Source of the DNA: a virus
Length of the DNA stretch: 40,454 nt
IMG/VR virus record: IMGVR_UViG_3300037189_012271
Location: 1-40,454 of that record
Direction: 5' to 3' (one strand)
This document shows positions 7,474 to 23,942 of this stretch, one piece after another. The position numbers and the translations under genes were made by a program. The notes under the pieces were generated by a model. The model was not told the DNA's origin. It searched no databases and was given only the letters and a program-made list of their open reading frames with translations. Every line of letters begins with the position of its first letter. Within the stretch, counting starts at the first letter, position 1.

Positions 7474-9504
7474 TTATTTTGCTTCATACCAAGAGTTTCC
7501 TATATTGGCATCTGCATTCATTTTTAAAATAGGATTTTTTAAGAAAAAATTACCTCCTTTTCTCATACTATCTTGTACAACATGTTTATAAGTTTCTACT
7601 AAAGAATCTTCTACTTCTAACAATATTTCATCATGAATTACATTAGCAATTCTAGCTTTCCAATAGTGATTATGTTCTTCTATATAATTAAAAATTAATA
7701 TAGTAGCAAATTTAGTTTGATGTGCTGATGTACCTTGAGTAGGAGCATTTAAACAAAGTCTAAAATATTGAGATTTTAAACTAAAATATTCACTTATTTC
7801 ATGTTTATTATTTAAAAATAAATTATATGCTGTAGTATTTTGAATAACATATTCTTCATTTTTTAATTTAGCTTCTTTATTATTTTTATACTCTTGTTTA
7901 CCTTCTCTATAAATGGTCCAAAAGTCATTATCAAGTTTAGAAATATAATTATGTAATTTAGTAAATCTATCAAATTTAGGTAATCTTAATTTAAAACCAA
8001 GAGCATATTCAATATATCCTAATTCAATAGATTCTTTTAATTTTTTATTACCATATTCATAAACTCCAGAATGTAATTCTTTAAATAAATTTTCTAATCT
8101 CATACCTTCTTCAAGTGGTATACCTTCATTCATAGCTACAGTATAACCTGTACCACCATAAGTAAAAGCAAACCTAGGTGCTTTGGCAGAGTTTCTTTTA
8201 TTTTTGTGTTCTTTTTTAATTATATCATCAGGTAAATCTTTAATTTCTGGATATAATAATTTAGCAAAAGCACAATGAAGATCTAATCCATCTGTAATAG
8301 ATTTAATTAATGCTATATCTCCTGTTAAATCTGCACCAACAACATTTTCTTGACCTTCATAATCACAACAAATCATTTTAAATCCTGGATTAGCAGTAAA
8401 ACAATCTCTTGTTTCTGAATTAGCTGGAAAATTTAAAAAGTTTATTTCACCTTTTCTTGATGCAATTCTAGCAGTATCTAATATAGGTTTAAATCTAGTA
8501 TATATTCTATTATTTTGAATTTTAGAATAAATACTATCTCCAAAAGTAGTTACATTATGTTCTGTTTCTTTAAAGTTTAACCAAAGTTTTACAAATGGAT
8601 GTTTACTTTTAGAAATAACAGATTTTTCTAAACTTTCTTTAATAACATTTTTTTCATTAATTTCAACATTAATACCAAAGTCTTTAAACACTGGTATCAT
8701 TTGTTGAGGAGAAGATAATAAACAAGTAATTTTATTTTCAGTAGAAAACAAATTTAATTGCAAATTTCTATATTTAGGTAAATAATTAAAAATATAATCT
8801 GTAACTAATTGTTCACATTCTTTATATTTTTTATAATCATTATCCATTTTATTTTTCCATTTTTCTACAGATATAGGTAACCCACATAGTTCCATATAAG
8901 TTAATGCTCTTATATGTTGACAATGTAAATTATAACTTTCTATAGCTTTGTATTCTTCTAATTTTTTTACATAAACTGAATGTAATTCAAGTAATTTATC
9001 TACATCATTAAAACAATATTCAATAACAGATGATTTACTTAATTTAACATTATAAATGTTAGCTTGTTCTGTTTTATCATAATTAATATTTAATTCTCTT
9101 AACATACATTCTTTAAATGAATGTCTTATAAAAGAATTTCCATTATAATAAATCATAGAAGCTAACATAGTATCTTTTACTTTTTTTAAAAAGTAATTTT
9201 TAACAAAAAAGAAAGATAAATCAAATGCAGCATTATGAAATACTAAAGTTTTATCTTTTATAAAAGGAATTACTTCTGATAAATAAATAGATTTATTTTC
9301 TTTATAAATTTGTAAATCTATAAGATAATTATTAAATCCAGTACCTATTTGAATAGAAAATATTTCATCTATTTTTGGATCTAAACCTGTAGTTTCTGTA
9401 TCCATAGCTATTATATCAGGTAAAACCATATCTTCTAATGAACAATAATTATAATTACCAATTTTTGTAAAAAAATCTTTATTTTTGGTTATAATATAAT
9501 TCAT
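7474..9504 (-). CDS. polA: DNA polymerase, family A, with 3'-5' exonuclease
   Basis: Replicative polymerase of the T7/Pol I family. The proofreading domain has Exo I DTETTGLD (35-42), Exo II FHNAAFDLSFF (around 88-98) and Exo III YCFNDVDKLLEL (around 163-174). The polymerase domain has motif A CCDYEGQENVVGADL (around 376-390, T7-like D-x-x-G-x-E), motif B in the RNSAKAPRFAFTYGG region (the O-helix R...K...F..YG) and motif C VIHDEILLEV (around 624-633) with the catalytic His-Asp-Glu. No 5' nuclease domain is present. The 676-aa length is normal for a phage family A enzyme. Crassvirales are known to carry either family A or family B polymerases; this one carries A. A promoter lies two genes upstream, inside the end of the amidoligase gene. 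Confidence 0.95.
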   Translation of the reverse strand: MNYIITKNKDFFTKIGNYNYCSLEDMVLPDIIAMDTETTGLDPKIDEIFSIQIGTGFNNYLIDLQIYKENKSIYLSEVIPFIKDKTLVFHNAAFDLSFFFVKNYFLKKVKDTMLASMIYYNGNSFIRHSFKECMLRELNINYDKTEQANIYNVKLSKSSVIEYCFNDVDKLLELHSVYVKKLEEYKAIESYNLHCQHIRALTYMELCGLPISVEKWKNKMDNDYKKYKECEQLVTDYIFNYLPKYRNLQLNLFSTENKITCLLSSPQQMIPVFKDFGINVEINEKNVIKESLEKSVISKSKHPFVKLWLNFKETEHNVTTFGDSIYSKIQNNRIYTRFKPILDTARIASRKGEINFLNFPANSETRDCFTANPGFKMICCDYEGQENVVGADLTGDIALIKSITDGLDLHCAFAKLLYPEIKDLPDDIIKKEHKNKRNSAKAPRFAFTYGGTGYTVAMNEGIPLEEGMRLENLFKELHSGVYEYGNKKLKESIELGYIEYALGFKLRLPKFDRFTKLHNYISKLDNDFWTIYREGKQEYKNNKEAKLKNEEYVIQNTTAYNLFLNNKHEISEYFSLKSQYFRLCLNAPTQGTSAHQTKFATILIFNYIEEHNHYWKARIANVIHDEILLEVEDSLVETYKHVVQDSMRKGGNFFLKNPILKMNADANIGNSWYEAK

Positions 9505-10160
9505 TATGTATATTTTTTTAATAGTTGAAAATCTTTAAAAGTAATAGGATTAAAATTTTCAGGATCATAAGTTTCTTTATCTATAGATAATTTTAAAAAT
9601 GGATGAGGAATATTTTTAATATGTAATTCAGATTGAATTATTTTATATAAACCTTCTTTTTTAATTAAATTATTTATAAAATTACTTACTATATCAGAAG
9701 AATGTAAAGGTTTCATACTTTTATACAATCCTTTTAATAATAAATTTACATGAATATTAAATATTTCATTATCTGGTTTTATTGCAAATACATGATGTAA
9801 ATCATTTTCATAATAATCTAATGTTTGTGGTATTTCTTCTAATACTTCTAATATAGTTACATTGTTCTTATTAAAATTAACATTAGGTAAATACTTAACA
9901 TCTTTTTTAAATACTAAATAAATAACATCACTTGCATAATTATATTCAACTTCTTTATTAAATAAATAAGAATTAATTAAATTTTCATTATGCAAGTATG
10001 TTAAAGTGGATAAATTGTTAGAAATATTTTTAAAAATATTTATATGATTTAACAAAAACAAAGAAGTTTGAGTTATCTTTAAATCTTCTAATTCTTTAAA
10101 AAAATATGTCTGATGTGGATTCTTCAAGGTCATTCCAATCATTTTTAATGTATTTTTCAA
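9504..10160 (-). CDS. Unrecognised 218-aa protein between polymerase and exonuclease
   Basis: Soluble protein, mixed alpha/beta, no recognised motif. The stop codon shares one base with the polymerase start (TAATG), so it is translated directly ahead of the polymerase and could be a polymerase or exonuclease partner. The longest start (10160) overlaps the exonuclease gene by 65 nt; in-frame ATGs at 10142 and 10133 would shorten the overlap to 47 or 38 nt and are equally plausible. No function is assigned. Confidence 0.65.
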   Translation of the reverse strand: MKNTLKMIGMTLKNPHQTYFFKELEDLKITQTSLFLLNHINIFKNISNNLSTLTYLHNENLINSYLFNKEVEYNYASDVIYLVFKKDVKYLPNVNFNKNNVTILEVLEEIPQTLDYYENDLHHVFAIKPDNEIFNIHVNLLLKGLYKSMKPLHSSDIVSNFINNLIKKEGLYKIIQSELHIKNIPHPFLKLSIDKETYDPENFNPITFKDFQLLKKYT

Positions 10161-10971
10161 TTAAATCTAATGCATCGTCTATTAATACTTTACCTTGAAT
10201 TTCATCTTTATATGATAGAGGATATATTAGTGGTTCATCTATTTTTACAGAGTTACAAACTACCCAATGAAATGGGCGTAAAGTATAATCACCATAACCA
10301 TTCTTTTCCATAAAATCTTCTATTCCCATTAAATATAACTTACCTTGTAAATGATAATAATATTTTTTAACTGACTCAGGAAATTGTGGAGGATAACTGC
10401 TAGATTTTAAATCTGTTACAATTATTTCTTTATTTGCTTTATCAATTTTTAAATAATCTAATTTAACTAAAAAATTAAAATCTCTATATTTAAATTCCCA
10501 TTTAAATTGTGCTTCACCTTCAGAAAATAAAAAATTAACTTTTTCATCTTTCTTTAAGTAAGTACCTATTTCTTTTCCTAAATCAAAATTATCTTTTAAT
10601 ATTTTATTTTTAGGATCTTTAAAATAGCTAATATAATCTGGATAACTTAATACAGTATTTAATATTTTTTCATAATTCTTAGATTTTACATTTAATGAAG
10701 TAGCAGCTTCTTCAACTGATTCTAAATTAAATTCTTTTTGATTGTTAATAATAAATTCTATAATAAATTTTATTTGTGGTTTAGGAAGCTCAATATCTAA
10801 TATTTCTTCCGTAAACTCTTCATTAAATACTACTTTATCAATTACAGTTCCTTTTTCCAAAAAAGAAGATTTTTTATAAACTGGGTTTAAAAAAGAATCT
10901 TTACCTTCTTTTAATAATCTACTCAAGGAACTGTAACTTAATCTTAGTGTTTCTTTATTAGGTGTTTGCAT
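10096..10971 (-). CDS. PD-(D/E)XK exonuclease (RecE/Cas4/RecB-like)
   Basis: Nuclease of the PD-(D/E)XK superfamily in the RecE/RecB/Cas4 branch. The N-terminus has LSYSSLSRLLKEG, the usual first helix of these enzymes. The catalytic core is LDYLKID (Asp at about 172), then IIVTDLKSS with D-x-K (about 187-189), followed by YHLQGKLYL, the Q-x-x-x-Y motif of RecB-like nucleases. It should resect double-stranded ends for the SSB-like and Sak4-like annealing pair of the same arm. I chose the ATG at 10971 rather than a longer frame from 10995, because the promoter elements at 10993-11024 put the transcript start near 10986. Confidence 0.8.
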   Translation of the reverse strand: MQTPNKETLRLSYSSLSRLLKEGKDSFLNPVYKKSSFLEKGTVIDKVVFNEEFTEEILDIELPKPQIKFIIEFIINNQKEFNLESVEEAATSLNVKSKNYEKILNTVLSYPDYISYFKDPKNKILKDNFDLGKEIGTYLKKDEKVNFLFSEGEAQFKWEFKYRDFNFLVKLDYLKIDKANKEIIVTDLKSSSYPPQFPESVKKYYYHLQGKLYLMGIEDFMEKNGYGDYTLRPFHWVVCNSVKIDEPLIYPLSYKDEIQGKVLIDDALDLIEKYIKNDWNDLEESTSDIFF

Positions 10972-12412
10972 AATGATTATTTGTATAAGATGCAAAAGTA
11001 CTCAATTTATCTGTAAAAAACAAATTTTTTCTATTATTATAATAATAAATTAATTCTTTTTTAACTTCATCTTTAAAATAATAATTAATTACATCCATAA
11101 CAGTAAATACATGTCCTTCTAAGCATTCTTTTATGTGATCTTGCACAAACTCAAAGATAGCAATAGAAAGTAAAATTTGATTAATAACTCTGTTAGAGTT
11201 AAAAGTATTTTCATGAATTCTAAATTCTATAGTATTTCTACTAGAAAATAATAAATTCATAAAATTAAATACATAATACCTGTTTACTCTATCCCATTTA
11301 TTTTTTAAAGGATGTTTCTTATTCTTTTTGTTAAAGTTTTTACAAGAAGCAATTCCATCTGTTAAAAATAAAAATATATTTTTGTTATTATAATTAACAA
11401 GATATTCAAATTCTTTTTTATCTATCTTATTAAATGATATATTTTTACATAAAGGAGGTAAAGGTTTAGTATAATGTTTTCTTTTATTTAATACATTTTC
11501 TTTTTTATAATAAGGAAAATAACTAAAATAATCATGTTGAAAATAATATAAAAAATTATACAATGCATTGATAAAAACTTTATCATTTCTAATATTACCA
11601 ATATGAACATGCAAACTACAGTTTATATCAGTATTAACATTATTAGCATTTAAATTCATAAATTTTTTAATACTCTCAATACCTTTTAATCCTGACATAG
11701 GTACAGAAACATACTCTGCATTATCAATAGAACCATCTCTACAAATAGAAAATCCATATTTTTTTAAACTATGACGATATACAGAACCTTCAGAAGTTTC
11801 TAACTCTATACCAAAAGTATAATTTTTTAAATATTTTTTATATTTATAAGTAGTTTTTTCTATTTCAATATTAGATTTATTATATAAAAGAACAGATTCT
11901 TGATAATCTGAATTATCTTCTATATTATAAGCTCTATGAGTTGCAATAGAAGATGAAGTTTCTTCTTTTATTTGTTCAATAAAACTTTCTTGATCTGTAA
12001 TATTTCCAATATAATAAAATTTAGAATTAGCTTTATTAAAAATAAAATCTGAATCATATAAAATTTCTTTAACATCTTTTATATAAACTATAGCTGTATC
12101 ATATTGAAAAATTTTACCCTTATTAATAAAAACAAGATCTTTGGTACATTTAAAATAAATTTGTTCCATCTTAGTAGGATCTTTAAGAAAGAATCCTAGT
12201 GTAAATGTTTTATTATTTTTATCATAAGAAATTACACCAAAATCAAAACTATTATCTCTAATTAATTTACTAAAATGATAATGTTTATTTAAATCTTCTA
12301 TAAAATATACATCAGGATGATTTATATGATAATAATTTTTTCTATAAATAATACATTCTTTTCTAGGTACTTCGTTACCAAGAATGTCAATAACTTTTTT
12401 ATAAGTTTTCAT
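10958..12412 (-). CDS. Putative amidoligase (PF12224, Amidoligase_2-like)
   Basis: The C-terminal two thirds match the COOH-NH2 ligase fold of the glutamine-synthetase-like amidoligases: TFGIELETSEG (199-209) with the metal-binding E-x-E pair, ICRDGSIDNAEYVS (223-236), CSLHVHIG (265-272) with the conserved His pair, and TIEFRIHENTFN (about 402-413). Such enzymes use ATP to join a carboxylate to an amine and in known operons occur next to glutamine amidotransferases or AIG2-type cyclotransferases, both of which are the next genes upstream here. The first 195 residues are an extension I do not recognise. It is the last gene of the island; its end carries the promoter of the exonuclease/polymerase genes. 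Confidence 0.8.
   Translation of the reverse strand: MKTYKKVIDILGNEVPRKECIIYRKNYYHINHPDVYFIEDLNKHYHFSKLIRDNSFDFGVISYDKNNKTFTLGFFLKDPTKMEQIYFKCTKDLVFINKGKIFQYDTAIVYIKDVKEILYDSDFIFNKANSKFYYIGNITDQESFIEQIKEETSSSIATHRAYNIEDNSDYQESVLLYNKSNIEIEKTTYKYKKYLKNYTFGIELETSEGSVYRHSLKKYGFSICRDGSIDNAEYVSVPMSGLKGIESIKKFMNLNANNVNTDINCSLHVHIGNIRNDKVFINALYNFLYYFQHDYFSYFPYYKKENVLNKRKHYTKPLPPLCKNISFNKIDKKEFEYLVNYNNKNIFLFLTDGIASCKNFNKKNKKHPLKNKWDRVNRYYVFNFMNLLFSSRNTIEFRIHENTFNSNRVINQILLSIAIFEFVQDHIKECLEGHVFTVMDVINYYFKDEVKKELIYYYNNRKNLFFTDKLSTFASYTNNHYANT
10993..11024 (-). promoter_or_regulatory. Bacteroidota-type promoter for exonuclease and polymerase genes
   Basis: On the minus strand TTTG (11021-11024) is followed after 20 nt by TACTTTTG (10993-11000), a full match to the Bacteroidota primary-sigma consensus TTTG, 19-21 nt, TAnnTTTG. 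It lies inside the last codons of the amidoligase gene. The transcript would begin near 10986, about 15 nt upstream of the exonuclease ATG, giving a very short leader. It would let replication genes be expressed separately from the amidoligase island. Confidence 0.65.
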
Positions 12413-12422
12413 AATTTTATTT

Positions 12423-14123
12423 TTAATAACCTCTTAAATATTCTTGTTCATTAAAATTATAACTTGAAAATTCGTCTTCATCTTCATCTTCAACAGGTTC
12501 ATTGTGAGCAATATAAAATTCTAATACATGATTATTAATAGCTTCACAAAAAGAACCATATTCTTTAACCATATCATTCCAATAAACATTAAATAATACA
12601 GTAGAAAATTCTGTAAATTTAGAGTTAGCAACAACAGATGAAGTATCTATCATTAGATCAAACATTTCTAGTTTATATAAAGGATTTTGTTCTATAAAGT
12701 TTAATATAGTTTGTTTAGAAAGATTAGGTTGTAAAATAAATTTTAATAAATGATAACTAAAGAAATATTGTTCACAATAAAATTTTTCTATTACTTCTTT
12801 TTCATCTAAGAAATCTGTATCAATTTCTAAACTAGATTTACTAGGAATAGATAATAACATATTATTTCTATTACTATCTATTTCTTCTATTTTTACAATA
12901 TTAAAACTTTCAAAAAACAAATGTTTGTTAATAAATATTTTAGGTAATGGAAAATAAACATTACTTTTTTTATTAATAGGTTTATACCAAGTGCTATTAT
13001 ATTTTATAGGAACCATACTAATACTTTCCAAATCATGGTTTGGAACTTCATAACTTAAAATATTATTAATATTAAATTCAAGATTTTTACTTAAAATTTT
13101 TGCTCTTATTAATTCTAAATTTACCCAAATACCTTTATTAAAAACATAAATATATTCTTCATCTAATATACTATCTAATGGTTTATTTATTAAATTAAAT
13201 ATAGTATTATCTTTATTAGATCTATATACACCATGTAATAATTTATTTTTAGATTTAGTTTTAAATAAACCTTTTTCAAATAAAATTTTAAATTTATCAG
13301 ATTGATGTTCATCAAAACTATTTGTAGTATTAGAAAATAAATTATAATTACTATGTGTATAAAAAGAAGATTTACTAACAAAAACTTCATCTTGAAAACA
13401 TTCAGTTCTATCTATTTCAACAGTACTTATAACTTTATTATTTTTAAATTCAAAAATACAATTAGTATTAATATCAAATATATTTTTATTTTCTTCTGAA
13501 GTACAAATAAAATTTAAACCTTTTTTAACAGAAGATAAATATAAACCTTCATTAAGATAAACACCAAATAAAGGTCTTTCTTCAGTTAAAATGTTATTAT
13601 TAGTTTTAGATTCACCTTTAAATACTTTAAGAGTTTGACCTCCATTATCAGTCCATACTAAAGTTGCTTTACCTCTATATTCTTTTAAAACATCATAACC
13701 ATATTTATAAATAATATTAGCTAATAAAAAAGAATCTACTTTATCATTTGTATCAATATCTATAGGATATTTTTTAACTAAATCTTCTATATTATAAATA
13801 GTACCATTATGACAAAATACAAAGTTATCATCAATAATAAAAGGATGCAAATTTTCATCTGTTTTACTTCCTTTAGTAGCATATCTAGTATGGCTAATTA
13901 CACAAGTAGCTTTAGTTGTTTTTTTAGTAAAGTGAAGGTTTGTATACAATTCTGAAAAATTAGCTTTAGTAGCATCTTTATAAGAATAATTACTTGGGGC
14001 AGGGTTAGCCCAAATGCCAACCCCATGTCCTCCTCTAGAATCATTTGCAATACTTGCTAACTTTAACTTTAATATATTTGGATTTTTATAGTTATTGCCT
14101 ATAAATGCAGTTATTCCACACAT
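12423..14123 (-). CDS. Class II glutamine amidotransferase-like protein
   Basis: The N-terminal domain is an Ntn-type class II glutamine amidotransferase: MCGITAFIG places the catalytic cysteine at residue 2 after Met removal, GGHGVGIW follows, then SHTRYATKGS (about 77-86) with the substrate-binding Arg, CHNGTIYN (about 105-112) and DSFLLANII (about 129-137). These residues release ammonia from glutamine or act as an amidohydrolase. Residues from about 260 to 566 do not resemble the usual partner domains (asparagine synthetase, SIS of GlmS, phosphoribosyltransferase) and end in an acidic tail (EDEDEDEF). The start must be at 14123 for Cys2. It stands 10 nt from the amidoligase and 11 nt from the cyclotransferase-like gene, so it is part of the same biosynthetic unit. 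Confidence 0.85.
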   Translation of the reverse strand: MCGITAFIGNNYKNPNILKLKLASIANDSRGGHGVGIWANPAPSNYSYKDATKANFSELYTNLHFTKKTTKATCVISHTRYATKGSKTDENLHPFIIDDNFVFCHNGTIYNIEDLVKKYPIDIDTNDKVDSFLLANIIYKYGYDVLKEYRGKATLVWTDNGGQTLKVFKGESKTNNNILTEERPLFGVYLNEGLYLSSVKKGLNFICTSEENKNIFDINTNCIFEFKNNKVISTVEIDRTECFQDEVFVSKSSFYTHSNYNLFSNTTNSFDEHQSDKFKILFEKGLFKTKSKNKLLHGVYRSNKDNTIFNLINKPLDSILDEEYIYVFNKGIWVNLELIRAKILSKNLEFNINNILSYEVPNHDLESISMVPIKYNSTWYKPINKKSNVYFPLPKIFINKHLFFESFNIVKIEEIDSNRNNMLLSIPSKSSLEIDTDFLDEKEVIEKFYCEQYFFSYHLLKFILQPNLSKQTILNFIEQNPLYKLEMFDLMIDTSSVVANSKFTEFSTVLFNVYWNDMVKEYGSFCEAINNHVLEFYIAHNEPVEDEDEDEFSSYNFNEQEYLRGY

Positions 14124-14134
14124 ATATTTTTTAT

Positions 14135-14524
14135 TTAGTTGTTAGTAATAGGTCTATAATCATTATAATCACCAGATGTAATAATTGTAGAACCTGAGTT
14201 TTCCATAAAATAAAGCCAAGCTTTTATTACTTGACCCTTTAATTCAACATTAATTTCTTCTCTACAATACCATTCAGGATGTCCTTCTAGTCTATCTACT
14301 GATGGCAAATGTAAGTCTCTGTTAATTTCCCAAACATCTACAACAATTTGTGTATCTGGAGTTTTATTAACAAAAGGAATACCACTAGCTCTCATTTGAT
14401 ATTTATCTACAGTTTTACCTGTACCTAACCATTTAGTCTGACCAGGAATATCTACAAGTCTAGAATTACCATAACCTTTACGTAAAGTGCCATAGCTTGC
14501 AATTAAAATATTATTTTTTATCAT
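14135..14524 (-). CDS. Gamma-glutamylcyclotransferase-like (GGCT/AIG2, BtrG-like) protein
   Basis: The glycine-rich substrate loop YGTLRKGYGN (11-20) and the segment VDRLEGHPEWYCR (76-88) with the catalytic-type Glu (about 80) are the two signatures of the GGCT/AIG2 fold. Enzymes of this fold cleave gamma-glutamyl-amines, releasing 5-oxoproline; BtrG does so to remove a protecting gamma-glutamyl group in butirosin synthesis. With ATP-grasp and amidoligase genes alongside, a gamma-glutamyl intermediate that is later trimmed is plausible. The chosen ATG is at 14524; a GTG at 14530 would add two residues. It overlaps the 42-aa gene upstream by 14 nt. Confidence 0.85.
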   Translation of the reverse strand: MIKNNILIASYGTLRKGYGNSRLVDIPGQTKWLGTGKTVDKYQMRASGIPFVNKTPDTQIVVDVWEINRDLHLPSVDRLEGHPEWYCREEINVELKGQVIKAWLYFMENSGSTIITSGDYNDYRPITNN

Positions 14525-14639
14525 CTTCACTTAATGTTTTTAAATCTTTAATAATTTCTTTTATTTCATGTATTTCAAAAGAACCTAGCCTATCAGACCA
14601 TAATAATAATTCTGTTAATCTTTTAATTATCTCTATCAT
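14511..14639 (-). CDS. Small 42-aa protein within the amidoligase island
   Basis: A complete short frame with ATG at 14639 and TAA at 14511. It encodes an amphipathic, mostly helical peptide with an LTELLLWSDRLGSFEIHEIK core and a charged end (SEDDKK). It fills what would otherwise be a 98-nt gap in an operon that has almost no gaps, overlapping the ATP-grasp gene by 17 nt and the cyclotransferase gene by 14 nt. That fit is the main support. It could act as a carrier or adaptor for the pathway, but no carrier motif is visible. Confidence 0.55.
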   Translation of the reverse strand: MIEIIKRLTELLLWSDRLGSFEIHEIKEIIKDLKTLSEDDKK

Positions 14640-15573
14640 TTTGATTAATTATATTAATGTCTGAATCTAATTGAAAGTTTTTCCAAGCTAATGATTTAGA
14701 ATTTTTAAATTTTTTAAAATCCCAATGTTCTAACTTACTTGTTTTAGTATGTCTATGAATATAATCAAATAGTTTAGCATATCTTTGAACAGTATAATCA
14801 TTAGATATTAAAGTTGGACTAGAATTAATTTCTAATACATAATATTTATCTTCAAATCTAATAATATCTACTGCACCAAAATCAGCTCCAACTGCTTCCA
14901 TTGCTTTTAAAGCTGTTATACACATATCATAATTATATTCAGACCAAGGAATATAAATAAATGGATCTCCATTTAAAGATCTATTCCAAGCTTTTTGACT
15001 AGGATTACTAGGCTTTGGTTTTTCTAATACAGAAATTACTTTACCTAAACCACAATGTACTCTAAACTCTGCATCTTTTTCTAAATAAGGTGCAAAATAA
15101 AAATTAGTCATTTCATTTAAATCTAAAAAATGATTTAATTCATTACTATTATTTAGTACAATAAAATTTCTACCTTTTGCGTGTTGCAAAGGTCTACAAA
15201 TTATAGGATATTCTAAATTAGAATCTTCAGAAATTTCTTCATAGGTATAATAGGGAGTTAATATATTATTATTTTTTAATATTTGTCTAGTTAATCCTTT
15301 GTTATTAATTTTTTCTAGAGCTTTAATATTATTATAAACAATACTATTATTATTAACTGGTAAAGGTATTCTATTACCCCATCTAATAATTACATTTTCA
15401 TTAAAAGGAGCATTAATAGATTTTTTAATAAAATAATCAGAAACATTATAATTAAATGATCTAAACCATTCTTTATTTTTAATTTTTCTTCTGATTCTTA
15501 ATTCACAATTAAATTTCATGTGTTGATAGACAGCTTTCATTGAAGGTCTACCATCTTTACCTACTAGTATCAT
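14623..15573 (-). CDS. ATP-grasp ligase (RimK-like)
   Basis: ATP-grasp domain: the lysine-bearing strand and loop YPIICRPLQHAKGRNFIVL (about 123-141) correspond to the ATP-binding P-loop-like hairpin; EFRVHCG (about 170-176) is the linker strand; ADFGAVDIIRFEDKYYVLEINSSPTL (about 232-257, key residues D, D, E, N) carries the metal ligands. Arg replaces the usual Lys at one ATP contact (ICRPL). Related enzymes join amino acids to peptides or small acids through an acyl phosphate. It overlaps the 108-aa gene by 4 nt (ATGA), showing translational coupling. Together with the two amidoligases it would provide a third amide-forming activity. The acceptor is unknown. Confidence 0.85.
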   Translation of the reverse strand: MILVGKDGRPSMKAVYQHMKFNCELRIRRKIKNKEWFRSFNYNVSDYFIKKSINAPFNENVIIRWGNRIPLPVNNNSIVYNNIKALEKINNKGLTRQILKNNNILTPYYTYEEISEDSNLEYPIICRPLQHAKGRNFIVLNNSNELNHFLDLNEMTNFYFAPYLEKDAEFRVHCGLGKVISVLEKPKPSNPSQKAWNRSLNGDPFIYIPWSEYNYDMCITALKAMEAVGADFGAVDIIRFEDKYYVLEINSSPTLISNDYTVQRYAKLFDYIHRHTKTSKLEHWDFKKFKNSKSLAWKNFQLDSDINIINQNDRDN

Positions 15574-15896
15574 ATTTTTTTAGGATTTTTTAAGTTATGT
15601 AATTTTAAAACATACATATCTAATGTTTGTTTTTTGCCATCTATGTTAGAAACTTCTCTTCTATTAAATTCTAGTGTTTTTCTAAAACCTAGTTTTTTAA
15701 GATTTCTTCTTAAAGTAATTTCTTCTTTTTTGACTATACATTGAATAGTAGTTTCACCTCTTCCATAACCATGCCAATTAATTTGATCTAGTTGATTATA
15801 TTTTTTTAAAAGTTTTTTATACATTATATCAACGTTATCATAATTTTTAGCTTGTAAAAATAATAATGCACAACAAGGTGTTCTCTTTATGGTCAT
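15570..15896 (-). CDS. Unrecognised 108-aa protein of the amidoligase island
   Basis: Small basic protein starting MTIKRTPCCALLFLQ and containing YGRGETTIQCIV (43-54) and LRRNLKKLGFRKTLEFNRRE (62-81), ending LDMYVLKL. The last part is reminiscent of the C-terminal strand/helix of GNAT acetyltransferases (k-LGF), a fold reported among amidoligase-associated genes, but the protein is too short and too divergent to assign. It overlaps both neighbours by 4 nt (ATGA), locked between the PF14395-like ligase and the ATP-grasp ligase, so a role in the same pathway is likely. Confidence 0.7.
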   Translation of the reverse strand: MTIKRTPCCALLFLQAKNYDNVDIMYKKLLKKYNQLDQINWHGYGRGETTIQCIVKKEEITLRRNLKKLGFRKTLEFNRREVSNIDGKKQTLDMYVLKLHNLKNPKKI

Positions 15897-16639
15897 AATA
15901 AATTATATTTTTTAATTAATAATTCTGCTTTACTTTTATCATTATTTTTTATAATATTTTTAATATTATATTTTTCATGATCTTTAAAGTTAGATTCTAA
16001 TAAATTTAAAGCTAGTTCTGAATTATTCCAAACAAAATCTAAATATCTTTCTTGTTGAAACCAAGAACTTAATACTCTATATTCTACCCATTTATTATTA
16101 TCTCTATAAGAACCTGCATTACCATATAATTTTTTACGATCATTATCAGGCTCTAGTAATAAACTTGGAATAGCTAAAGTAAAATCTAGTAATTTAACTA
16201 AATCTTTTTGAAGATTATGTTTTACATCTATATGAAGATGAAATCCTGCAGACCTACCTTTAAACTTCATAGGATTAACTTTTACTACATTATATTTACC
16301 TGTATAAGCATTTAAATCTGGTTCACAACCAAATGTAATACTTTCTACAGTATATAATTCTTCTTCATCTACTTCATAAAAAGGAAATGGAGATAATTGT
16401 AAATCACTTTCTAATAAAGATTTTAAATAATCTTGACTTTCCAAGATTTGTTTTTTAAATACTTTTTTATTGTCTGTAATTGGAGTATTATATTCCATCA
16501 TAATACAGTCTAAAGAAGTTAAAAATCCTCCTTCTTTCCATTGGTAAGGAAAAGTTTTAGTACCTTCTACAATACCACAAGCATTAATTGCTTTGTTATT
16601 TCTTGTAACAAAAATTTCTATATCTGTTCCTAAAATCAT
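15893..16639 (-). CDS. phiEco32-like COOH-NH2 ligase (PF14395-like amidoligase, type 2)
   Basis: The features of the phiEco32-type amidoligase are visible in order: GTDIEIFV (4-11), the E-x-E-like metal site; CIMMEYNTP (45-53); SITFGCEPDLNAY (100-112); SAGFHLHIDV (130-139) with the conserved paired His; and WVEYRVLSSWFQ (184-195), the last Glu/Arg strand. It belongs to the same glutamine-synthetase-like superfamily as the protein at 10958-12412 but to a different family, so this operon has two distinct amidoligases. Reaction: ATP-dependent condensation of a carboxyl and an amino group. It overlaps the upstream 239-aa gene and the downstream 108-aa gene by 4 nt each. Confidence 0.85.
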   Translation of the reverse strand: MILGTDIEIFVTRNNKAINACGIVEGTKTFPYQWKEGGFLTSLDCIMMEYNTPITDNKKVFKKQILESQDYLKSLLESDLQLSPFPFYEVDEEELYTVESITFGCEPDLNAYTGKYNVVKVNPMKFKGRSAGFHLHIDVKHNLQKDLVKLLDFTLAIPSLLLEPDNDRKKLYGNAGSYRDNNKWVEYRVLSSWFQQERYLDFVWNNSELALNLLESNFKDHEKYNIKNIIKNNDKSKAELLIKKYNLL

Positions 16640-17355
16640 AATTCATTTTCTTTTTTTAATTTAACATAACATTCATAACCTTCTTTAAATAATCCACTTT
16701 TAAATAAAGTAAATATTTTTTCTTTTATTTCTAAATTTTCAACATAAACATTATAATCTTCATGAGGATAAAAATAATCATTAAAAACAAATCTATTGTC
16801 AGTAATTAATGGTCTTATGAATTTAATAATTATTTTAGGATCTCCTACAGTAAATTTATCATCATATACTGAACTTTTAAATCCATTATGTATACCATAA
16901 TATGCAACATGAGGAAATGTAAAAGGTGCTAAATATAAAATTTCTTCTATACTATCTGTATATTTTTGTAATTCCATAATAGCTATTGGAAATATATAAT
17001 AGTATTTAATTATTAATAATCTAACTAATACCATAGCTCTATATACACTAGAAGAAGATGAAGGTTCTTTTAATTTATCAATTTTAATAACAAAAGTTAT
17101 TTCATTTTTTATTATCTTATATTCAATAATAGTATTGGTAGCTTTTTGTACAAAATTTATATAATTAGTTAAAAACTCATTATTTTTAATATAAATTAAG
17201 TTAGCATTATATAAAGATGTTGTAAAAACAAAATAATTTTTACTTTTTGAAGACATTAAACAAGTTCCTTTAATAAATTTAGAAAATAAAGAATAAGAAT
17301 ATTCACTTTTTATATGTCTATTATAAGATTTTCTTAAATCTGTAACATTTACCAT
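16636..17355 (-). CDS. Unrecognised 239-aa protein coupled to the amidoligase
   Basis: No family recognised. It has a hydrophobic central stretch (VYRAMVLVRLLIIKYYYIFP, about 104-123) that may be a buried helix rather than a membrane span, and a His-containing loop FPHVAYYGIHNGFKS (about 148-162). Its stop overlaps the PF14395-like ligase start (ATGA), so it is translated with it and is the first strictly coupled gene of the island. It could supply a substrate-binding or regulatory role, or be unrelated. Confidence 0.7.
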   Translation of the reverse strand: MVNVTDLRKSYNRHIKSEYSYSLFSKFIKGTCLMSSKSKNYFVFTTSLYNANLIYIKNNEFLTNYINFVQKATNTIIEYKIIKNEITFVIKIDKLKEPSSSSSVYRAMVLVRLLIIKYYYIFPIAIMELQKYTDSIEEILYLAPFTFPHVAYYGIHNGFKSSVYDDKFTVGDPKIIIKFIRPLITDNRFVFNDYFYPHEDYNVYVENLEIKEKIFTLFKSGLFKEGYECYVKLKKENEL

Positions 17356-19855: not shown

Positions 19856-20491
19856 TTATTTATAATAAGGTAATGTGTAATTAATAACTCCTCCACAATA
19901 TTCTTCATGGACTTTTTTCCAGTCATGGTATTTATCAAATAAATAATCTAAATAAATACACATTACTTTGACTTGTTTATCTTCGTGGTTTCTACCAGAA
20001 GTATTTAGTCCACCTCTTTTACACATATTATTCCAGGTTAAATCTATAAATTGAAACATACCTTTTGCAGAAGAGTTATTATTTTGTACTGTAGTTTTAA
20101 AGTTTGATTCTTTAAATGCAATATACCATACTAAGTTAGCAGGAACATGATGTAATTCAATTACATGTTTATATTTAAAATATAAATAATGTAATCTTTT
20201 TTCTTGATCTTGAGTTAGTGTGATAGGTAAAGATTTTCTAAAGTCTGAGTATTCAGTAGCACTATTTTGAGATTTAGTTTCTAAATAAAAAACATTAGTT
20301 TTTAACGTAGAGATTTCTTTTAGTTGTGAGTCAATGATATTATCTTGTTGTTGAGCATCTAATTTGTAATGGGTTATTAATATAATAATTAATATAATAG
20401 ATCCTATAGTAGCTCTAAAAAATAAATTATATTTTTCTTGCTTTACTATATCTAATTCCCATTCTAATTTTTCATGATTAAAAGTATACAT
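19856..20491 (-). CDS. Membrane-anchored lytic transglycosylase (SLT domain)
   Basis: Cell-wall hydrolase. Residues 24-41 (FFRATIGSIILIIILITH) form a signal-anchor membrane helix; residues 45-80 are a polar, coiled-coil-like linker; residues about 115-205 are an SLT lysozyme-fold domain with the catalytic Glu128 in AFKESNF, the GMFQFIDLTW motif (144-153, family G-x-M/L-Q-x-x-P-x-T) and a late VCIYLDYL/EEYCGG region. It would cut peptidoglycan from the periplasmic side at lysis, without needing a separate export signal (SAR/anchor-type endolysin), or be carried in the virion. It lies in the early/replication arm 4 nt from its neighbour, away from the structural genes, which favours a lysis role. 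No holin is adjacent. Confidence 0.82.
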   Translation of the reverse strand: MYTFNHEKLEWELDIVKQEKYNLFFRATIGSIILIIILITHYKLDAQQQDNIIDSQLKEISTLKTNVFYLETKSQNSATEYSDFRKSLPITLTQDQEKRLHYLYFKYKHVIELHHVPANLVWYIAFKESNFKTTVQNNNSSAKGMFQFIDLTWNNMCKRGGLNTSGRNHEDKQVKVMCIYLDYLFDKYHDWKKVHEEYCGGVINYTLPYYK

Positions 20492-23911: not shown

Positions 23912-23942
23912 GTAATATAAGGGGGCAAAGCCCCCATATTAC
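23912..23942 (-). terminator. Strong GC-rich rho-independent terminator
   Basis: GTAATAT + GGGGGC on the minus strand pairs with GCCCCC + ATATTAC around a TTT loop, giving a 13-bp stem with a two-base bulge, followed by TTTTTAAAA. It overlaps the stop of the isolated gene at 23942-24346. It is the most GC-rich hairpin in the window and suggests a highly expressed, sharply terminated transcript. Confidence 0.85.

Follow-up and report, generated by a model that had tools for sequence, protein, structure and literature searches.

What chemistry is encoded by the compact group of genes at 10958-17355 on the minus strand of the virus record IMGVR_UViG_3300037189_012271 (IMG/VR), does it represent a kind of island not met before, and on which substrate would it act? 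The stretch analysed here, referred to as the window, comprises positions 1-40,454 of that record. The group consists of genes for an Amidoligase_2 enzyme, a class II glutamine amidotransferase (GAT), a gamma-glutamyl cyclotransferase (GGCT), a RimK-like ATP-grasp ligase and a PF14395 (COOH-NH2) ligase, together with three small proteins without assigned function, and is almost certainly the crAss-like version of an amide-bond cassette already known from phages. By its terminase (phrog_6681, E 3.9e-91), portal (phrog_6547, E 8.8e-105) and major head protein (phrog_11589, E 6.5e-63), all of crAss type, the window phage is assigned to the Crassvirales, and the crAss-like setting with replication genes alongside, put forward in a preliminary description of this DNA, is borne out. 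The same virus is also represented by a near-complete IMG/VR record of 97,665 bases (G001), in which the COOH-NH2 ligase is 100% identical.

Enzymes and layout of the cassette

The open reading frames (ORFs) of the preliminary description were all recovered, each on the minus strand (Table 1). Its statement that nearly all genes overlap by 1-17 nucleotides (nt) held for five of the seven junctions, the ORF for 42 residues counted: three overlap by 4 nt (15570-15573, 15893-15896 and 16636-16639), and the 42-residue ORF adds two overlaps of 17 and 14 nt. It did not hold for the other two, which are gapped, by 11 nt between GGCT and GAT and by 10 nt between GAT and amidoligase. The start sites show A-rich leaders with no clear Shine-Dalgarno sequence, as is usual in Bacteroidota. 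The cassette lies amid replication genes sharing its strand, since the same arm also carries genes for DNA polymerase, exonuclease, primase, Sak4, a DnaB-like helicase and dUTPase.

Table 1. Features of the cassette and its surroundings in the window (aa, amino acids)
Feature	Position	Strand	Matches and remarks
Amidoligase_2-type ligase, 484 aa	10958..12412	-	PF12224 E 4.2e-4; phrog_7469 E 4.5e-6
Class II GAT, glutaminase domain residues 2-246	12423..14123	-	GATase_6 E 1.7e-15, 57.7 bits (cut-off 27)
GGCT/AIG2-like gamma-glutamyl cyclotransferase, 129 aa	14135..14524	-	GGACT PF06094 E 3.3e-18, 66.8 bits (cut-off 22.8); phrog_2520 E 7.9e-28
RimK-like ATP-grasp ligase, 316 aa	14623..15573	-	PF08443 E 1.8e-6, 28.2 bits (cut-off 21); phrog_2599 E 1.8e-22
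phiEco32-type COOH-NH2 ligase (PF14395), 248 aa	15893..16639	-	PF14395 E 1.6e-9, 37.9 bits (cut-off 25); phrog_3815 E 4.9e-43
Small 42-aa ORF joining the ATP-grasp and GGCT genes	14511..14639	-	relatives in three other contigs, two away from the cassette
108-aa protein	15570..15896	-	no Pfam match at cut-off, no PHROG
239-aa protein	16636..17355	-	no Pfam; weak phrog_25656 E 0.0026
Flanking PD-(D/E)XK exonuclease	10096..10995	-	phrog_412 E 6.9e-11; adjoins the cassette in most related loci
SLT transglycosylase-domain protein	19856-20491	-	N-terminal hydrophobic segment, then PF01464 E 3.1e-8

The enzyme families named in the preliminary description were confirmed by Pfam and PHROG matches for all five proteins, and AlphaFold2 models of amidoligase and GAT agree with them. 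The weakest match is that of the Amidoligase_2 gene, whose 20.7 bits against PF12224 fall just below the Pfam cut-off of 22. Its model (58 homologues, across which 18 residues are invariant; mean pLDDT 86.7) adopts a glutamine synthetase (GS)/GCS-type fold over residues 178-475, with VIA Z scores of 12.2 for naphthylamine GS (rmsd 4.1, 239 aligned residues), 11.7 for YbdK, 10.8 for plant glutamate-cysteine ligase and 10.4 for Dop; the fold on which the preliminary description had made its proposal depend was accordingly recovered at a Z of about 12. The GAT keeps 27 residues invariant in 34 homologues, including C2, R30, N106, G107 and D130, and its model (mean pLDDT 79.7, pTM 0.53) gives VIA Z scores over residues 2 to ~246 of 23.8 for PurF and GlmS and of 23.4 for EgtC; the C-terminal region was modelled only as part of the full-length GAT and barely tested for fold matches. 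For the COOH-NH2 ligase, a PF14395 search of the window's own record gave no match and hmmscan of the translated protein did, and the latter result was taken; searches of solved structures with the profiles of this enzyme and of GGCT returned no match.

The preliminary description had also turned on catalytic residues, and these are retained: the COOH-NH2 ligase has all residues that are 100% conserved in 66 homologues, and the ATP-grasp enzyme 11 of the 12 columns 100% conserved among 66 sequences, the twelfth aligning to a gap. The latter appears to be a divergent member of its family, deviating at many columns of 90-98% conservation. As judged from the alignments, the cassette enzymes seem intact at their active sites, which supports working enzymes. 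Compared with the relatives L007 and L008, pN/pS is 0.21-0.25 for GGCT, 0.51-0.57 for amidoligase and 0.46-0.56 for the N-terminal domain of GAT, the nearby replication genes ranging from 0.09 to 0.44 and the gene of unassigned function at 9504-10160 reaching 0.65-0.71. The C-terminal region of GAT (12423-13388) gives 0.96-1.07; this tail shows no net constraint at the L007/L008 distance.

Class II GATs free ammonia from glutamine via the N-terminal Cys, GS/GCS and ATP-grasp ligases form amide bonds through acyl phosphates, and GGCTs release 5-oxoproline from gamma-glutamyl amines. The predicted set, in which two carboxylate-amine ligases of the GS/GCS superfamily, an ATP-grasp ligase, a class II glutaminase and a cyclotransferase are kept together, is able to attach amide and gamma-glutamyl groups and to take them off again.

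Relation to known phage cassettes

The phage amidoligase cassette is said to have been first proposed by Iyer and co-workers in 2009, and its role has been a guess for over a decade. The phiEco32-type company of enzymes, to which the preliminary description had pointed, is indeed on record: PMC5498523 describes the same enzyme types, two amidoligases, ATP-grasp, GGCT and GAT, amid replication and transcription genes as a "peptidoglycan modification cassette" in podoviruses (HP1 and RIO-1 of Pseudoalteromonas, phiEco32, LUZ24-like phages and CW02), and proposes, as a hypothesis, peptidoglycan modification against superinfection, a reading absent from the preliminary description. The set also stands in the table for UFV-P2 in PMC3890496 and in a PaP3-type locus; 300 records place the cassette in phages that infect Pseudomonas, Escherichia, Vibrio and other hosts. 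The window differs from these podoviruses in gene order, in belonging to a Crassvirales phage and in its ligases, as the COOH-NH2 ligase is only about 30-38% identical and the amidoligase found no podovirus match by tblastn at E 0.01.

The claim of the preliminary description that no such island was known in crAss-like phages had to be given up. GenBank/RefSeq annotation holds the five enzymes in Cellulophaga phage phi14:2 and several of them in the uncultured crAss-like phage cr108_1, and many more contigs carry them; in the open-licence literature, a description of the cassette in crAss-like phages was not found, the matches being a bacterial protein, a passing reference to a tRNA amidotransferase and papers that seemed off the subject. 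Phage phi14:2 (NC_021806, g037-g041), itself a member of the Crassvirales and by terminase the nearest named phage (33.8% over 99%), carries its five enzymes between the primase and a uracil-DNA glycosylase/exonuclease region and, like the window, gave no class I glutamine amidotransferase (class I GATase) by profile search. It differs in the order GGCT-ATP-grasp-COOH-NH2 ligase-GAT-amidoligase, in a leader on its GAT and in the low identity of both ligases (23-28%). Its named isolate host, Cellulophaga baltica #14, makes the cassette question directly testable. In cr108_1 (NC_055878), the ATP-grasp ligase, COOH-NH2 ligase, GAT and amidoligase likewise lie between primase and exonuclease, but no GGCT was found by profile, and a class I GATase and two additional proteins without assigned function are present.

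For three of the enzymes the nearest named relative is Leptolyngbya phage Lbo-JY46 (PP438436), with identities of 33.1% over 95% for the amidoligase, 37.7% for the COOH-NH2 ligase and 34% for the GAT; unlike the window phage it has a cyanobacterial host, larger ATP-grasp and GAT proteins and one or two class I GATases. Its portal (E 1.7e-110) and head protein (E 1.1e-31) are of crAss type, which suggests a crAss-like phage beyond the Bacteroidota. These three phages make up all five records of named phages matched by the amidoligase at E 0.01 (two each for phi14:2 and cr108_1), and because a search with the crAss-type terminase matched 137, the cassette appears, by the amidoligase query, to be rare among named crAss-like phages.

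When viral contigs were scanned with the amidoligase alignment, 96 loci were confirmed and 80 kept, or 79 without the window's virus. All five enzymes are present in 55 of these 79, and because the five families stand together so often, their co-occurrence is beyond chance; the amidoligase, having served as bait, is not an independent witness, near-copies occur among the loci, and of the 24 incomplete ones several stop at a contig edge. Of the 55 five-enzyme loci, 50 have an exonuclease at most 3.5 kb away and 51 a primase. Among 48 chosen records behind the loci, 35 have a match to the crAss portal family, which in 32 reaches E 2.8e-49 or better and in three is weaker, and 34 have one to the terminase family; 26 of the 33 five-enzyme loci among these records have the portal match. 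The relatives share the enzyme set of the window but not its gene order, for which the preliminary description had suggested a search: 48 of the 55 complete loci read GGCT-ATP-grasp-COOH-NH2 ligase-GAT-amidoligase, two other orders occur five times and twice, and the window's own (COOH-NH2 ligase-ATP-grasp-GGCT-GAT-amidoligase) occurs in none. In L008, dUTPase instead of ATP-grasp precedes GGCT.

At the level of sequence, the window has every defining feature of the known phage amidoligase cassette and is not a new type of island; its own differences are the gene order, the lack of a class I GATase and three small ORFs without assigned function. Beyond the viral contigs, 84,980 species genomes were scanned with an alignment of the COOH-NH2 ligase, which left six confirmed loci out of 103 pattern matches, all in metagenome-assembled genomes; these six are probably phage contigs, and two of them (L096 and L097) are labelled archaeal.

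The GAT leader and the candidate substrates

The GAT exists in two forms. Among 72 distinct sequences, 39 are leaderless and begin with Met-Cys-Gly or its equivalent, as does that of the window (MCG), 31 carry 22-33 residues with a hydrophobic core ahead of the catalytic Cys, and two, the truncated L053 and the ambiguous L068, received no score on the tree. Because the residue preceding the catalytic Cys in the second form is mostly Asn or Ser, seldom encodable by a start codon, translation must start upstream of the Cys. A basic residue follows the hydrophobic core in 30 of the 31 leaders and at most one basic residue precedes it in all 31, a charge distribution that, by the positive-inside rule, places the enzyme at the cytoplasmic side. 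The motif KPKxNxLxC and its variants recur in the GATs and in no other ORF examined; the leader as a whole was found in none of the other ORFs tested (best other match E 0.06), nor in the two podovirus GATs examined, and we have not seen it reported on GATs before.

Constraint at the protein level is evident from two small clades, with pN 0.085 versus pS 0.272 (six relatives) in one and pN 0.168 versus pS 0.364 in the other. Even so, the leader varies among close relatives, being absent from L041 and L040 and present in L030, L031 and L056. Its label changes 19 times on a quick tree, at least 11 of these changes being forced by well-supported branches, versus 23.5 after shuffling, and values as low as that observed arose in 27 of 500 shuffles for one leader label and in 11 for the other; the leader is often gained or lost and weakly clustered on the tree. 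In Escherichia phage IME267 (L091, 6001-6031), the GAT frame apparently starts at an ATT immediately ahead of the catalytic Cys, a residue that would be lost with the annotated start, 30 nt further on.

The optional leader narrows the possible location of the cassette chemistry. For a GAT that faces the membrane, a lipid-linked substrate in the envelope is a better match than DNA or a virion protein, and the leader gives independent support to membrane work in some members of the cassette, no proof of a wall substrate being implied. Modification of DNA or nucleotides, with which the position of the cassette among replication genes in the window and related loci would agree, is very improbable: the membrane-type leader does not fit it, and neither a thymidylate-synthase-like hydroxymethylase nor a base-modifying transferase or any further base-modification gene was present in the scanned window genes or in 10 G001 proteins (10 of the 24 ORFs of 120+ residues from the rest of that genome). 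The nucleotide target considered in the preliminary description hence received no support.

Our best overall explanation, possible at somewhat less than an even chance, is that of a crAss-like amide-bond cassette expressed from the replication operon and directed at cell-wall precursors. The glutaminase would release ammonia from glutamine, the ligases would equip a peptide or amino acid that carries a carboxylate with amide or gamma-glutamyl bonds, and gamma-glutamyl groups would be stripped as 5-oxoproline by GGCT. The target would be wall precursors of the host, modified on their peptide stems at the inner side of the cytoplasmic membrane; the wall would be changed during infection, perhaps excluding competing phages. 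The host cell wall as target, taken by itself, is a distinctly tentative assignment, made because the published peptidoglycan reading, the GAT leader and a nearby transglycosylase gene were counted in its favour; the last encodes the membrane-spanned protein with a lytic transglycosylase domain listed in Table 1, 3 kb upstream of the cassette on the same strand. A membrane-docked variant, in which a removable leader delivers the glutaminase to the inner membrane and its ammonia serves amidoligases rewriting the peptide stems of lipid-linked wall precursors, is unlikely as such.

Several observations weigh against a wall-directed cassette. Neither the window GAT nor that of cr108_1 has the leader, and 39 of the 72 GATs are without it, so that membrane tethering cannot be essential, and, since class II glutaminases require a free N-terminal Cys, it may merely be a propeptide. 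The cassette yielded neither a Mur-ligase gene nor one for transport, and no class I GATase was detected in the window or in three further stretches read (L087-L089), G001 being covered in part, with 40001-43143 and 83598-83999 (~3.5 kb) outside the stretches read. The C-terminal half of the GAT evolves at a pN/pS near 1. For the amidoligase model, Foldseek by itself gave no match in the PDB at E <= 0.001 (best 2.3e-3, top rows of GS/YbdK type). Biochemical evidence was found nowhere in the literature consulted, and if L096 and L097 are real archaeal viruses, they speak against peptidoglycan as the sole target.

The class I GATase bears on a second route. Its family (Peptidase_C26/phrog_7218) accounts for 102 ORFs in 63 loci and is present in 47 of the 55 five-enzyme loci; PMC5498523 does not list it for the podovirus cassette, and it is, like the GAT leader, an accessory of many crAss-like cassettes and no defining part. 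Gamma-glutamyl protection and deprotection, as in the PuuA/PuuD and BtrJ/BtrG pathways, could yield an amide-bearing metabolite or a modified polyamine, for example against host defence. GS/GCS-type ligases next to a GGCT, the additional class I GATase of most relatives, best matched by Peptidase_C26, and the resemblance of the amidoligase model to YbdK, plant glutamate-cysteine ligase and an amine-glutamylating GS argue for such a small-molecule product; it is nonetheless doubtful, as the window is without the C26 enzyme, the cassette shows no carrier protein, decarboxylase or exporter, and no metabolite is known.

RimK glutamylates ribosomal protein S6, and the ATP-grasp enzyme of the window matches TIGR00768 (E 2.6e-12) and a PHROG, phrog_2599, annotated as S6 glutaminyl transferase. 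Together with the amidoligases it could attach Glu or another amino acid to some protein of the host or the virion, GGCT trimming gamma-linked residues. Protein targets are also proposed for the related R2K clade of ATP-grasp enzymes, with linked peptide ligases noted, in PMC4431377. Protein modification of this kind is nevertheless rather unlikely: a glutaminase and two further ligases exceed the needs of S6-type glutamylation, and a co-conserved candidate substrate is lacking, the neighbouring 108- and 239-residue proteins being confined to the window's virus.

Small ORFs and genomic surroundings

The 42-residue ORF adjoins the ATP-grasp gene and raises the possibility of a ribosomal peptide, in which the ATP-grasp enzyme would act on a small precursor as in microviridins and graspetides. 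Weak matches of this enzyme to MvdD (E 9.6e-5), MvdC (E 2.1e-4) and the solved CdnC (E 0.0035), which has a graspetide role, would agree with it. The match to the RimK family is far stronger, however, and across the 97 loci searched the 42-residue family was not found beside most ATP-grasp genes, and in L033 and L064 it lies apart from the cassette; such a product is scarcely credible, and the ORF was rejected as a cassette-specific precursor. Its relatives by tblastn (L008, E 8.8e-11; L033, E 2.5e-8; L064, E 6e-6) define a family of ~40 residues with a conserved WSDRLGS-like centre in varied gene settings (window 14511-14639, L008 1076-1189, L033 17695-17799 and L064 18493-18597).

For the 239- and 108-residue proteins, scans of viral contigs matched only the window's own virus. 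Considered as lost cassette parts together with a 123-residue protein, they were rejected, since by profile they matched neither the class I GATase nor X300, a family without assigned function (22 ORFs in 17 loci), in any meaningful way (probabilities 0.1-0.4%).

In five loci, L035 (5676-7550), L063, L066, L073 and L097, genes for the COOH-NH2 ligase or the amidoligase are split, and in L035 a LAGLIDADG ORF (PF14528, E 9.5e-15) lies between the gene pieces, which suggests homing elements aimed at cassette genes. An inserted LAGLIDADG domain is also carried by a PhoH-like gene at 4202-5986 of L089, in the near-complete relative of the window virus. Many TAG codons interrupt the portal or terminase frames of G041, G044 and G048 (the records behind L075, L079 and L085), the portal frame containing 18 in G044 and 15 in G048, a sign of TAG reassignment. 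In the window itself, a G+C-rich hairpin, GGGGGCTTTGCCCCC, is found on the minus strand at 23920-23935, near the divide of the two gene arms.

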